A DNA stretch of 64,000 bases, from assembly GCA_900109895.1 (NCBI GenBank), contig FOBR01000015.1:62001-126000 (forward strand), written 5' to 3'. The stretch's first letter is position 1, and the number at the start of each line of letters is the position of its first letter. Shown in pieces: positions 27,655-33,272 of the stretch. The notes below the pieces were generated by a model, which had not been told where the DNA came from, searched no databases, and worked only from the letters and a program-made list of their open reading frames with translations. Made by a program: the position numbers and the translations under genes. This DNA comes from a bacterium A37T11 (GTDB lineage: Bacteria > Bacteroidota > Bacteroidia > Sphingobacteriales > Sphingobacteriaceae).

Positions 27655-27700
27655 AAAAGGTGCCTACTCATGCAGAGACAGGCACCTTTTATTTTTTTTT
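27655..27700 (+). terminator. Terminator of the porin-amt operon
   Basis: The eleven-base stem AAAAGGTGCCT / AGGCACCTTTT (27655-27665 and 27680-27690) is followed by a long T run. The A and T flanks make it usable on both strands. Confidence 0.85.
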
Positions 27701-27708
27701 CACTTTTT

Positions 27709-27739
27709 TTTGTAATTATCATTTTGAGTCGTACATTTG
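27709..27739 (+). promoter_or_regulatory. Promoter of the aromatic amino acid operon
   Basis: TTTG at 27709-27712 (-33) and TACATTTG at 27732-27739 (-7) are separated by 19 bases, an ideal Bacteroidota promoter. The predicted start is near 27743. Confidence 0.75.
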
Positions 27740-27757
27740 GCCCATCAAACAGAAACA

Positions 27758-27823
27758 ATGAGATTACAAAGTGCATATTGGTTTTTCGGATTCTTTTACT
27801 TTAGCAGTAAGAGCCGGGATTGA
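27758..27823 (+). CDS. Aromatic-rich leader peptide of the attenuator
   Basis: A 21-residue open frame (ATG 27758, TGA 27821) starting about 15 bases after the predicted transcription start. Residues 7-15 read YWFFGFFYF: two Tyr, one Trp and five Phe in nine positions. The remainder is polar and ends SSKSRD. Classical leader peptides use one amino acid, for example Phe in the E. coli pheA leader; this one covers all three. It precedes a terminator and a prephenate dehydratase gene. Confidence 0.85.
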   Translation: MRLQSAYWFFGFFYFSSKSRD

Positions 27824-27860
27824 TATGTATATATAAGATAAAAATTATAGAAAACAGAAA

Positions 27861-27892
27861 AGTCCCGGCTCACCAGCCGGGACTTTTTTTTT
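27861..27892 (+). terminator. Attenuator terminator before pheA
   Basis: A ten-base GC-rich stem with loop CACC followed by nine T. The T run ends ten bases before the pheA ATG, so the terminator is tucked against the gene. Confidence 0.88.
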
Positions 27893-27902
27893 GATCATAC
27901 AC

Positions 27903-28730
27903 ATGAGTAATAAACGTATAGCCATCCAGGGAATAAAGGCCTCCTTTCACGAAGAAGCCGCCTTTAAATATTTCGGAAAAGAAATAGATACAATTGAGTG
28001 TGACACCTTTAAAGGTACCTGTGATGCGCTCAGGGAAGGCAGTGCAGACTTTACGGTCATGGCTATTGAAAATTCCATTGCGGGAAGCATCCTGCCCAAC
28101 TACAATCTGCTTCGGGACTATCGCTTTCATATTATCGGAGAAGTATATCTGCACATCCAGATGAATTTGCTGGCCCTCCCAGGCGTATCGTTCAAAGACC
28201 TGCGCGTCGTAGAATCACATCCCATCGCACTGAGACAAGTCACCGATTTTCTGGAAGATTTTCCGCACCTCCAAATTATCGAGGGAACTGATACCGCCGC
28301 TAGCGCCAAACGCATCAAAGACGAGCAATTACGTGATACTGCTGCTGTAGCCAATACCCTTGCCGCCGAAACTTACGGGCTCCACATTCTGGAGCGGCGC
28401 ATTGAAAGTAACAAAAAGAATTACACCCGTTTCCTCATTTTAAATGATAAAGATGTGCAAATAGAAAAAGCCAACAAAGCATCCCTTTCTTTCCAGACCG
28501 GAAACCAGGTAGGTGCCTTATATAAAGTATTGCAATGTTTTGCTGAGCAAGGGGTCAACCTCAGTAAAATCCAGTCGATGCCCTTATTGGGACGGAGAAA
28601 TGAATATGACTTTTATGTCGACGTGGAATGGAAAAAACAATCCGATTACGACGCCGCCATCCGGAAAGCCCTCAAGTATACCGTCAATTTCACCATTATG
28701 GGAGAGTATCAAAAAAATGATAAAGTGTAG
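27903..28730 (+). CDS. pheA: Prephenate dehydratase with ACT domain
   Basis: A 275-residue monofunctional enzyme that converts prephenate to phenylpyruvate, the committed step to phenylalanine. The catalytic domain (about 1-185) begins RIAIQGIKASFHEEAA and has AIENSIAGSI. The ACT domain (about 195-275) contains GALYKVLQCFAEQGVNLSKIQS, the Phe-binding regulatory unit. No chorismate mutase is fused here; that activity is on the next gene. The ATG at 27903 is chosen over an in-frame TTG at 27891 that lies in the terminator T run. Control is by the attenuator just upstream, plus likely allosteric inhibition by Phe. Confidence 0.94.
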   Translation: MSNKRIAIQGIKASFHEEAAFKYFGKEIDTIECDTFKGTCDALREGSADFTVMAIENSIAGSILPNYNLLRDYRFHIIGEVYLHIQMNLLALPGVSFKDLRVVESHPIALRQVTDFLEDFPHLQIIEGTDTAASAKRIKDEQLRDTAAVANTLAAETYGLHILERRIESNKKNYTRFLILNDKDVQIEKANKASLSFQTGNQVGALYKVLQCFAEQGVNLSKIQSMPLLGRRNEYDFYVDVEWKKQSDYDAAIRKALKYTVNFTIMGEYQKNDKV

Positions 28731-28806: not shown

Positions 28807-29913
28807 ATGAAATTAAATCTAGACATTCTGCCGTTGAGTTCATGGTTGAACACCGGCAAAGAACCGTTGGTTATTTCTGGTCCTTGCAGTGCAGAGACTG
28901 AAGAGCAAACCTTGAGTACTGCACATTTATTAGCTGCCACGGGTAAAGTTTCCGTACTGAGAGCCGGCATTTGGAAACCCCGTACCCGCCCGGGCGAATT
29001 TGAAGGGATTGGCAGCATCGGGCTGCAATGGTTAAAACGTGCTAAAGAAGAAACCGGTTTGCTCACCGCGGTAGAGGTAGCCACCGCCAAACACGTGGAA
29101 GAAGCTCTTGCCGCCGGCGTGGATATCCTGTGGATCGGTGCCCGCTCTACCGCCAACCCTTTCACCGTACAAGAAATTGCCGATGCCCTAAAAGGTGTAG
29201 ATGTTCCCGTATTGATCAAAAACCCGGTCAATCCGGACTTATCCCTATGGATCGGCGCCTTGGAAAGAGTTAACCGGGCAGGTATCAAAAAACTGGCCGC
29301 TATTCACAGGGGCTTTTCATCTTATGAAAAAACAGCCTTCCGCAATGAACCCATGTGGGACCTGGCCATCCAACTAAAAACCATTGCACCAGACCTACCC
29401 ATTCTTAACGATCCAAGCCATATATGCGGCAACCGGGAGCTCATCCCCTACGTCATGCAAAAAGCCGTAGACCTGGACATGCAGGGATTCATCATTGAGT
29501 CACATATTGACCCATCTGTAGCCTGGACCGATGCCAAACAACAGGTTACCCCTGCTGCACTGGCAGAACTTATTGATCACCTCAACTTACGCCATGCCGA
29601 TTCAAATGATCCCGTATTTGAAGACAAATTAGCCCATTTGCGTAAAGAAATCGATAAACTGGACGATCAGGTCATCAAGATCGTGGCAGACCGGATGAAA
29701 ATTGTGGAAAAGATTGGTGAGTACAAACGTGAAAATGGCGTAACCATTTTGCAGGTGAACCGATGGGATGAAATTATTCAAAAACGCCAAAACCTGGCAA
29801 AGGCCTTGAACCTTGATCTTGATTTTACCGTAAAATTAATGGAGCTCATCCACAATGAGTCTATCCGCAAACAGAATGTGATCATGAACGATAAACCTGT
29901 ACAGGAAGTTTGA
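28807..29913 (+). CDS. DAHP synthase - chorismate mutase (type II) fusion
   Basis: A 368-residue bifunctional enzyme. Residues about 1-265 are a class I DAHP/KDO8P synthase domain (GPCSAETEEQ, RAGIWKPRTRPGEFEG, DPSHICGNR, IESHIDPSVAWTD) that makes the first shikimate-pathway intermediate. Residues about 275-360 are an AroQ-type chorismate mutase (LRKEIDKLDDQVIKIVADRMKI is its first helix). In related fusions the mutase domain gives feedback control of the synthase. Its stop TGA shares one base with the next ATG (TGATG), so translation is coupled. Confidence 0.94.
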   Translation: MKLNLDILPLSSWLNTGKEPLVISGPCSAETEEQTLSTAHLLAATGKVSVLRAGIWKPRTRPGEFEGIGSIGLQWLKRAKEETGLLTAVEVATAKHVEEALAAGVDILWIGARSTANPFTVQEIADALKGVDVPVLIKNPVNPDLSLWIGALERVNRAGIKKLAAIHRGFSSYEKTAFRNEPMWDLAIQLKTIAPDLPILNDPSHICGNRELIPYVMQKAVDLDMQGFIIESHIDPSVAWTDAKQQVTPAALAELIDHLNLRHADSNDPVFEDKLAHLRKEIDKLDDQVIKIVADRMKIVEKIGEYKRENGVTILQVNRWDEIIQKRQNLAKALNLDLDFTVKLMELIHNESIRKQNVIMNDKPVQEV

Positions 29914-31184
29914 TGGAAACCGAGCGGCAAATACGAATTTCGAGATCCTTTGGTCCACTATCCGGAAGTGTACAACTAACCGGCTCCAAAAGCGAGAGCA
30001 ATCGTGCTCTGGTTATGGCAGCGCTTTCCGGCGGGCAGGTGTCTATTGAAAACCTGGGCAATGCTGCAGACACTATAGTTATGCAACAAGCCTTGACAGC
30101 AACCTTGCAACAGGGGCCCGGTCCATTCATCATTGACATTGGCCCGGCTGGCACAGCTATGCGTTTTCTAAGTGCCTATCTCCCTTTTGTACCAGGCAAA
30201 GAATTTATACTAACCGGAACCGCCCGCATGCGCCAACGACCTATCCGCATCCTTACAGAAGCACTTCAGGAGCTGGGCGCCCATATTCAATATACGCATC
30301 AAGAAGGTTATCCGCCGCTACAAATTAAGGGCGGCTTCCGTCAATTGACCAAAAGCATCCTGATAGAAGGCAATGTCAGCAGCCAATACCTTTCAGCTTT
30401 GCTGCTTATTGCGGCTTTTTTACCGGAAGGTTTAACCTTACAAATATTTAACGAACTGACTTCTAAGCCCTATATAGAAATGACCTTACGCATGTTAGCA
30501 CAGGCAGGCATTTCCTATCAATGGCAAGACAATTCCATCAGTATTCCACACCAGACGATAGCGCCTTGCACCATTCAAATAGAACCTGACTGGAGCGCGG
30601 CATCTTATTGGTATGCTATGCTGGTGCTATCTGCACCGGGCAGCCAGCTATTTCTTCCCGGCCTTCAACAAAATAGTTTACAAGGAGACAAGGCCATTGC
30701 CGAAATCATGAGTCATTTTGGTATAAGCACTTCATTTGTTGCTGACGGGGTTAGGTTATCAAATAATGGCCAGCAGAGCGATAAAAAACTCTTTGATTTT
30801 AAATCGTGTCCTGATCTGGCCCAAACGGTGATCGTGTGTTGTGCGGCCTTAGGAAGAGACGCCACCTTTACCGGTCTGGAAACGCTTAAAATTAAGGAAA
30901 CAGACCGCATTAAGGCCTTGCAAACAGAAATGGCAAAATTTGGGGTGAAGTTTTTTGAAGAAAAACACCAGGTATATCGGCTTGATTGCAGCCAACGCTA
31001 CGCACCCGCCTCCCTGCTCATCCACACCTACGAAGATCACCGTATGGCCATGGCATTTGCGCCGTTGGCATTAGTCTTTCCTGAAATACAGATCGCTGAT
31101 CCTGAGGTGGTCAATAAATCCTATCCTGACTTTTGGCGAGATCTGGAAAACAAAGGATTTAAAACAAATGCCATTCTTGCATAA
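29913..31184 (+). CDS. aroA: 3-phosphoshikimate 1-carboxyvinyltransferase (EPSP synthase)
   Basis: A 423-residue cytosolic enzyme that joins PEP and shikimate 3-phosphate. Family blocks are TGSKSESNRAL (substrate lysine), DIGPAGTAMRF (the LxxGxxGTxxR-type loop), RMRQRPI, VSSQYLSALL and TYEDHRMAMAFAPLA near the C terminus. The start is the ATG at 29913, overlapping the preceding stop. The active-site loop reads GPAGTAMR rather than the usual GNAGT, an unusual but conservative change seen in Bacteroidota. Confidence 0.93.
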   Translation: METERQIRISRSFGPLSGSVQLTGSKSESNRALVMAALSGGQVSIENLGNAADTIVMQQALTATLQQGPGPFIIDIGPAGTAMRFLSAYLPFVPGKEFILTGTARMRQRPIRILTEALQELGAHIQYTHQEGYPPLQIKGGFRQLTKSILIEGNVSSQYLSALLLIAAFLPEGLTLQIFNELTSKPYIEMTLRMLAQAGISYQWQDNSISIPHQTIAPCTIQIEPDWSAASYWYAMLVLSAPGSQLFLPGLQQNSLQGDKAIAEIMSHFGISTSFVADGVRLSNNGQQSDKKLFDFKSCPDLAQTVIVCCAALGRDATFTGLETLKIKETDRIKALQTEMAKFGVKFFEEKHQVYRLDCSQRYAPASLLIHTYEDHRMAMAFAPLALVFPEIQIADPEVVNKSYPDFWRDLENKGFKTNAILA

Positions 31185-31315: not shown

Positions 31316-32413
31316 ATGGCTGGTAATTCATTTGGGCAAATTTTCAGAATCACAACTTTTGGTGAATCACATGGGGAGGCAATAGGTGTCATTATTGACG
31401 GTTGCCCACCGCAATTGCCGGTTGAATTGGAATTTATCCAGGCAGAGTTGGATAAACGTAAGCCCGGACAATCCAGGATTACAACCCAACGGAAAGAAAG
31501 TGATACCGTAAAAATCCTTTCGGGAATATTTGAGGGGAAAACTACAGGCACACCCATTTGTATGCTGATACCAAATGAAGACCAGCGGTCAAAAGATTAT
31601 TCGCACATTGCCGATAAATACAGGCCTTCGCACGCAGACTATACGTATGAAGTAAAATATGGTATCCGGGATTACCGTGGTGGCGGACGCTCCTCCGCAC
31701 GTGAAACTGCTGCAAGGGTAGCAGCAGGTGCTATTGCTAAAAGCATTTTAAAATCTCATCAAATAGAAATATTTGCGCATGTATCAGGCGTAGGCACTAT
31801 TAACGCACCTAATCTTGACACAAATGATTTTACGAAACTTACTATTTTAAGAGAAAATAATCTGGTTCGTTGCGCGGATCCGGCAACGGCTGCTGAAATG
31901 GTGGAATACATTGATCAAATCAGAAAAGCTGGTGATACGGTGGGCGGGCGCATCCACACCCTAATTAAAAATGTGCCCGTTGGCTTAGGAGAACCCGTAT
32001 TTGACAAACTGCACGCCGATTTAGGTAAAGCCATGCTTAGCATTAATGCCGTCCACGGATTTGAGTACGGATCGGGGTTTGCAGGCTCCACCATGCTCGG
32101 ATCAGAACACAATGACCTTTATATAAACCCTAAAGGTGACGCCCACGCACTGAAAACCCGCAGCAATTTTTCAGGCGGTATTCAGGGAGGAATTTCCAAT
32201 GGCATGGACATCACCTTTACCACTGCTTTCAAACCCGTAGCCACCATTATGCAAGCCCAGGAAACCATTAACGTAGCTGGCGAACAAACCGAATTCATGG
32301 GAAAAGGACGTCACGACCCTTGTGTAGTACCACGTGCAGTGGCCATTGTAGAAGCCATGGCCGCTTTGGTTATTACCGATCACTTGCTTAGAAATAAATT
32401 ATATAATGTCTGA
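31316..32413 (+). CDS. aroC: Chorismate synthase
   Basis: A 365-residue FMN-dependent lyase that makes chorismate from EPSP. Signatures are the N-terminal [17 protein letters not shown], the central [20 protein letters not shown] and the C-terminal [11 protein letters not shown]. The length is normal. The downstream ROK kinase ATG overlaps its end by eight bases. A 131-base gap with short repeats separates it from aroA, so readthrough from the attenuated promoter and a weak internal promoter are both possible. Confidence 0.97.
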
Positions 32414-33272
32414 TAGTATTTATATTCTCGGAGCTGACATCGGAGGCTCACACATCACCGTTGGCCTGGTTGAATCCAAAAGCTGGACCATCATTCCTAC
32501 AACCATTGTCCGCGAGCGTTTAGACTCACAGGCGGAAGCTAAAAGGGTTTTGCAATCCTGGGCGCAAGCCATCCTAAAAAGTGCAGGATCAACCTTTGAT
32601 AAAACAAATTTCCGTCTAGGATTAGCAATACCTGGCCCTTTTGACTATTCACATGGAATCTCCGGAATCAAGGGTCAAAATAAATACGATCAACTCTTTG
32701 GGCTTAATATAAAGCAATTGCTAGCCAAGGAACTCGCTATTCAAACGCATCAACTTTGTTTTATCAACGATGCTGCTGCATTCCTGCAGGGAGAGGTAAT
32801 GACCGGCAATGACGCCGGTGGCAAAACAGCCATCGGGATCACTTTAGGCACAGGATTTGGCAGTGCAGTTTGGAAAGAAGGGCAATTTGCTGAAGATGCA
32901 GCACTTTGGTGTGCCCCTTTCCGGTCGGGAATCACAGAGGATTACATTTCATCGTCCAGTCTTGTCCTTAGATATAACCAAAACAGTCAGCACCACGTAG
33001 AAAATGTAAAGGAACTCGTTGACCGGGCCGATAACTCCAATGATATCCGGGATCTATTTAACGAATTTGGCCAGACCATTGGTGAATTCTTAACGCTGCA
33101 ATATCATCGCAAACCCTTCGACACGGCCATCATTGGCGGGAGTATTGCCAAAGCATGGCCTTTGTTTATTGAAGGCATTACCTCAAGGAGCCCCCACATA
33201 AATATTCGCCAAAGTATCCTCGGAGAAAAGGCAGCCATTGTCGGTGCGGCCAGTCTTTTTAAAACATTTTAA
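32406..33272 (+). CDS. ROK-family sugar kinase (glucokinase-like)
   Basis: A 288-residue kinase. The N-terminal phosphate loop is [13 protein letters not shown], the sugar-binding aspartate is in [11 protein letters not shown], and [11 protein letters not shown] is the second phosphate motif. The ROK zinc motif CxCGxxGC is absent, which puts it in the zinc-free subgroup. It has no DNA-binding domain, so it is an enzyme. The ATG lies inside the last codons of aroC (eight-base overlap), so it belongs to the same transcript. A link between sugar phosphorylation and shikimate supply is only inferred from this. Confidence 0.8.

Follow-up and report, generated by a model that had tools for sequence, protein, structure and literature searches.

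Organization of the pheA locus

The window, by which we mean the whole stretch of 64,000 nucleotides that was analysed, contains an aromatic operon that begins with pheA and is preceded by a compact leader region (Table 1). Of 80 named Sphingobacteriaceae loci, 74 have the gene order pheA, aroGQ, aroA, aroC; the remaining six are truncated by contig ends or contain an ORF with no assigned match. The ROK-family kinase gene, which is probably co-transcribed with aroC, lies 3' of aroC in 21-22 of 80 relatives. The tyrA gene is located elsewhere in the genome, and a search for an aromatic leader there found none.

Table 1. Features of the leader region and operon, in positions of the window
Feature	Position	Strand	Basis and remarks
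Bacteroidota-type promoter	27709-27739	+	TTTG 27709-27712, 19 bases, TACATTTG 27732-27739; read directly
Leader peptide ORF, MRLQSAYWFFGFFYFSSKSRD	27758-27823	+	ATG 27758, TGA 27823; 21 codons
Control codons Tyr-Trp-Phe-Phe-Gly-Phe-Phe-Tyr-Phe	27776-27802	+	Leader residues 7-15
1:2 protector hairpin	27771-27830	+	5' arm lies in the control codons, 3' arm covers the last part of the leader ORF; MFE fold
Segment 2, antiterminator 5' strand, GAGCCGGGATT	27811-27821	+	Pairs with segment 3
Segment 3, AGTCCCGGCTC	27861-27871	+	Common to antiterminator and terminator
Intrinsic terminator	27856-27892	+	15-bp hairpin 27856-27889 and U run 27884-27892 (nine T)
pheA, prephenate dehydratase	27903-28730	+	PF00800, E=5.5e-55
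aroGQ, bifunctional DAHP synthase-chorismate mutase	28807-29913	+	PF00793 and PF01817
aroA, EPSP synthase	29913-31184	+	TIGR01356, above cut-off
aroC, chorismate synthase	31316-32413	+	TIGR00033, above cut-off
ROK-family kinase	32406-33272	+	PF00480; overlaps aroC

The leader ORF contains eight aromatic codons, with YWFFGFFYF read directly from the sequence as residues 7-15. In a first-order Markov null set of 4000 sequences matched in composition, a chance ATG ORF of 8-30 codons with eight aromatic residues in a 10-residue window was never obtained, and one with seven was obtained nine times. The T run of the terminator ends at 27892, ten bases 5' of the pheA ATG (27903). The sequences AGCCGGGA at 27812-27819 and TCCCGGCT at 27863-27870 are complementary over their whole length, and the pairing of segments 2 and 3 reaches 11 bp, including one G-U pair (27811-27821 with 27861-27871). 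Segment 2 (GAGCCGGGATT) spans the last leader codons, and segment 3 forms the left terminator arm. The promoter, leader ORF, terminator and complementary segment described in the initial annotation are each present at the position it had assigned to them, and the arrangement before pheA is confirmed as real. A 21-codon gene of this kind is missed by ORF finders, and the element helps in its annotation.

The initial annotation had proposed folding of 27743-27892 as a check, and this gave a structure of -44.6 kcal/mol (z = -6.7), with none of 200 shuffled sequences folding equally well. The minimum free energy fold contains the 1:2 hairpin, which the initial annotation had lacked and which completes the classical set of 1:2, 2:3 and 3:4 helices. 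The locus has sequence features typical of ribosome-mediated leader-peptide attenuators as a mechanistic class, namely an aromatic-rich short ORF, an intrinsic terminator before the first gene and a 1:2 protector hairpin.

Upstream of the promoter, after the gene for the ammonium transporter amt, the window contains a terminator-like hairpin (GGTGCC...GGCACC) followed by a T run at 27661-27699, which probably insulates the attenuator promoter.

Conservation in Sphingobacteriaceae

A pheA match was found in 135 of 151 sampled genomes of the family, and 110 upstream regions of pheA were examined; at the genus level, the genome studied here was the sole member found. An aromatic leader with 6-9 aromatic residues per 10 residues is present in 109 of the 110 regions, and the sole exception (locus L110) sits before a divergent pheA with 44% identity. 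The leader was taken to be whichever short ORF within 300 nt was richest in aromatic residues, a procedure biased toward finding one; this bias is bounded by the Markov null model and by 27 of 30 pheA loci outside the class Bacteroidia, which have no leader. All 109 leader-bearing loci have a terminator, of which a simple hairpin rule detects 93 and folding reveals the other 16, these being bulged or long-looped. The TANNTTTG box was found at most 80 nt 5' of the leader ATG in 98 of 109 relatives, compared with 2 in a control window, and mostly lies 16-18 nt before the ATG. The conserved Tyr codons 7 and 14 vary more at the third position than at positions 1-2, and from such codon-level conservation we infer that the leader ORF is translated.

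The geometry of the region was analysed in 93 relatives. In these, 6-19 nt (median 10) separate the last aromatic codon from the start of the antiterminator, and the stop codon falls between -7 and +24 nt relative to that start. With these distances, a ribosome that finishes the leader would cover the antiterminator, whereas a stalled one would not.

One record labelled as a Legionellaceae bacterium MAG (L131) has a Daejeonella-like pheA region together with a leader, and is probably a mis-binned contig.

Covariation of the alternative helices

Covariation was analysed in an alignment of 50 relatives, with each helix counted separately because the helices are mutually exclusive and RNAalifold on the alignment yields the terminator only. 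Of the 11 consensus pairs of the terminator, 9 show compensatory changes, and 98.4% of its cells are paired over the 50 sequences. For the antiterminator, changes on both sides were found in 8 of 11 pairs and 93.3% of the core is paired in the same 50 sequences; its two outermost pairs are weak (columns 96-97, 30-42% paired). In the 1:2 hairpin 84.9% of cells are paired, and double-sided changes were counted in 50 cells, compared with 25.5 expected from shuffles. Slid controls gave far lower values for all three helices, both in cells paired and in covariation score. Compensatory changes preserve each of the three alternative helices. At the wobble position of the Tyr14 codon, C (34 sequences) and U (13 sequences) vary in step with G or A at the pairing position, indicating that both the peptide and the RNA are constrained at this position and that the synonymous choice is tied to RNA structure. 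The check set out in the initial annotation, for an aromatic ORF and a covarying antiterminator and terminator in relatives, came out positive in the 109 of 110 leaders and in these compensatory changes.

Distribution of the element in Bacteroidia

A covariance model of the element (R1) found one clear copy in the genome studied here (E=1.5e-16; next best 0.07). When R1 was used without pheA as bait on 296 genomes of the class Bacteroidia, the 17 top loci from outside the family included 13 that lay directly 5' of a pheA and had leaders with 6-9 aromatic residues. Starting from pheA instead, a leader was found at 31 of 34 class loci. All 16 sampled loci of one class family (f4) had a leader before pheA, and in two further families (f3 and f10) none was seen just 5' of pheA. 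The three class loci without a leader before pheA belong to one genus of a further family (f8), in which pheA is internal to its operon. In this genus the leader (SYFTFFYFYF or IYFTFFYFYF) and terminator head an operon of DAHP synthase-chorismate mutase, aroB, aroA and pheA, in that order. A tie of the element to pheA itself was rejected on the basis of this genus, where it heads an operon with pheA in an internal position. The element covers more than one amino acid and tracks the operon head when genes are reshuffled.

Three of the 30 loci from outside the class, L199 (family f15), L201 (f33) and L202 (f27), have an aromatic leader and terminator before pheA. Their pheA is nearer to the Bacteroidia type, and to the pheA of the window, than are the other pheA copies of their families. 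This suggests that leader and pheA were perhaps transferred together into these lineages.

Predicted ribosome states

The ribosome-mediated transcription attenuation put forward in the initial annotation is strongly supported by the conservation, covariation and geometry described above, and by the way the element moves to the head of a rearranged operon. The Trp-rich and His-rich leaders before trpE and hisG in the same genome also speak in its favour. We consider it very likely that the aromatic operon is controlled in this way, with the leader sensing mainly the charging of Phe and Tyr tRNAs. Transcription would start about 12-15 nt 5' of the leader ATG, and a ribosome would trail the RNA polymerase. 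When Phe and Tyr (and in this species also Trp) are plentiful, the ribosome is expected to reach the stop codon and to cover segment 2, so that the terminator forms. A shortage of Phe-tRNA or Tyr-tRNA would make the ribosome stall within codons 7-14, breaking the 1:2 hairpin and leaving segment 2 free to pair with segment 3, and the polymerase would continue into pheA-aroGQ-aroA-aroC. If the leader is not translated, the 1:2 hairpin should form and termination would occur by default. The antiterminator is an alternative that excludes the terminator, as sequence, covariation and geometry all indicate, freed by a stalled ribosome and presumably masked by a finishing one.

Constrained folds of these states agree with the proposed mechanism. 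For a ribosome placed at F10, F12 or Y14, the lowest-energy structure has the antiterminator (about -27 kcal/mol) even when the whole transcript is folded. For one placed at the stop codon, the terminator alone is obtained. A ribosome stalled at Y7 yields the antiterminator as long as segment 4 is still untranscribed, and the terminator once it is present. The folds describe equilibrium states with an assumed 12-nt downstream footprint, kinetics lying outside their scope; the stalling, the kinetics and the identity of the amino acids sensed are what we infer. The initial annotation had held that stalling at any of the eight aromatic codons would block termination. Going by the footprint geometry, this should hold for stalls up to Tyr14, which would leave the antiterminator free, and Phe15 appears borderline.

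Amino acids probably sensed by the leader

Tyr and Phe codons are present in all 109 family leaders, most of which have four to five Tyr codons, and Trp codons in 47 (43%). Among the class leaders, Tyr and Phe are found in 31 of 31 and Trp in 17 of 31. Trp presence has changed at least ten times on the pheA tree of 80 species. The conserved signal of the leader is Phe and Tyr, with Trp as an optional extra. A Trp-Tyr-Phe leader as the conserved form was rejected, as Trp is found in 43% only. The general aromatic sensing proposed in the initial annotation narrows to a probable sensing of Phe and Tyr, whose codons are universal in the family leaders, and is not supported for Trp, given its occurrence in a minority of leaders, its repeated changes on the tree and the separate WWW leader of trpE. 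Judged from codon occurrence, Trp sensing would be lineage-specific at most. Codon content alone is no proof of sensing, because the AroR leader of Corynebacterium glutamicum is described in PMC11802643 as answering to Phe and not to Tyr.

In the species studied here, limitation of Phe, Tyr or Trp might each relieve termination, with Trp sensed through codon 8. A single TGG codon does lie within the control run, Trp codons recur in the family and class leaders, and chorismate, which is made by the operon, is the precursor of Trp. We nevertheless find a sensor of all three amino acids rather unlikely, considering the repeated gain and loss of Trp on the tree, the Trp leader that trpE has of its own and the position of a lone codon early in the run, where it may stall the ribosome weakly. 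A leader that senses Phe only, in which the Tyr codons are kept since TAY and TTY, each one mutation apart, also serve the 1:2 hairpin, would fit with the Tyr14 codon being inside this hairpin with a covarying wobble base, with the Phe-Tyr-Phe leader of C. glutamicum responding to Phe and not Tyr (PMC11802643), with the Phe-specific pheA as first gene and with a tyrA elsewhere in the genome at which no aromatic leader was found. It is improbable, however, in light of the Tyr codons in every family leader, four to five in most, their retention also where DAHP synthase comes first and the use of the operon's chorismate and prephenate for Tyr as well. A plain constitutive terminator or 5' UTR structure, or a riboswitch bound by a protein or metabolite, with the small ORF present by chance, would agree with RNAalifold predicting the terminator helix alone, but can be dismissed as extremely improbable with the ORF kept in 109 loci together with its codon-level constraint, its spacing from the promoter and its placement with respect to segment 2, with the 1:2 and 2:3 helices covarying and with no Rfam family attaining its gathering score at the pheA leader.

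The ribosome-mediated attenuator is as well supported as can be expected from sequence alone. More tentatively, and with the balance of our judgement slightly against it, a single ancestral aromatic attenuator may have been kept across Bacteroidia at the operon head, whichever gene comes first, with its specificity adjusted as Trp codons come and go in a fixed Tyr/Phe frame. If so, the class would provide a natural series of sensors with two or three inputs. The natural series of codons is in any case suited to testing if mixed leaders truly sense several amino acids.

Comparison with known attenuators

The textbook case of this type of regulation is the pheL-pheA attenuator of Escherichia coli, in which the leader senses Phe only. 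The two systems share the controlled gene, the logic of three helices and a Phe-rich leader, a likeness in mechanism. They differ in that the leader described here always has Tyr and Phe codons, with Trp in a minority, and in that the operon holds genes of the common pathway. Leaders for several amino acids are known from enteric bacteria, such as ilvL (Ile/Val/Leu) and thrL (Thr/Ile), which likewise place codons for more than one product of a branched pathway in a single leader but differ in amino acids and lineage. The Rfam model Phe_leader (RF01859) gave 28.3 bits over its full length, model positions 1-125 (E=0.0088), at the pheA leader, and membership of this family is not claimed, since the score is below the gathering cut-off of 55. 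A similar mixed leader is that of aroR-aroF from C. glutamicum (Neshat et al. 2014, as reported in PMC11802643), which has a Phe-Tyr-Phe motif. By that account the similarity lies in the mixed Phe/Tyr leader, a DAHP synthase operon and ribosome stalling, and the differences in the host, an actinobacterium, and in a motif of Phe-Tyr-Phe only.

The initial annotation had been aware of no description of the arrangement in Bacteroidota, a point weakened by two reports in print. For Bacteroides thetaiotaomicron, Table 7 of PMC1173090 lists a predicted attenuator ahead of the operon pheA > hisHb > aroAI-beta-aroQ > tyrA, which shares the phylum, pheA at the operon head and the predicted attenuator with our locus, but as a computational listing that table entry names no leader peptide, and the operon content is different. 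A structured and transcribed 5' element before pheA, conserved and without an Rfam match, was reported in Flavobacterium psychrophilum and other Flavobacteriaceae (PMC9723704), and its authors note clues for leader-peptide attenuation before amino-acid operons. The main text of that paper gives neither leader sequence nor covariation; going by the description there, it is probably the same element. Three further studies, on premature terminators (PMC2965389), on leader genes (PMC4833913) and on the B. thetaiotaomicron transcriptome (PMC7366714), do not mention pheA. Our literature search, which covered few subscription journals, found no description of the leader peptide, its Tyr/Phe content or its distribution across the class.

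The type of switch is classical, and the mixed aromatic leader is widespread in the class. The analysis turns scattered hints, a prediction in B. thetaiotaomicron and an unnamed element in Flavobacterium, into a concrete and testable regulator for a major phylum, and the element could become an Rfam family.

Other amino acid leaders in the same genome

The Bacteroid-trp RNA (RF01692) is a cis-regulatory RNA found before trp genes in Bacteroidota and interpreted in PMC6414381 as a probable attenuator with a Trp leader; compared with the pheA element it has a different gene and different codons, and it covers trp genes only. RF01692 had no match in the genome studied here at E <= 0.001. From about 220 to 70 bases 5' of trpE (L261, contig C15) lies a leader ORF with a GTG start, VKLIHTTFGNWWWPLEKSAGSCYI, which contains NWWWP and is followed by a terminator, CCCGACGCTTTAAAGTGGTCGGGTTTTTTT. 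An antiterminator was sought in this trpE leader, and no convincing one was found (5 bp). The trpE leader is likely a Trp attenuator that RF01692 does not recognise. A His-rich leader ORF, MNIVFTHHVHFHHRHCGDM, containing THHVHFHHRH, is located about 120 to 60 bases 5' of hisG (L262, contig C12); a clear T-tailed terminator was not seen in its fold, and the ORF is likely a His leader.
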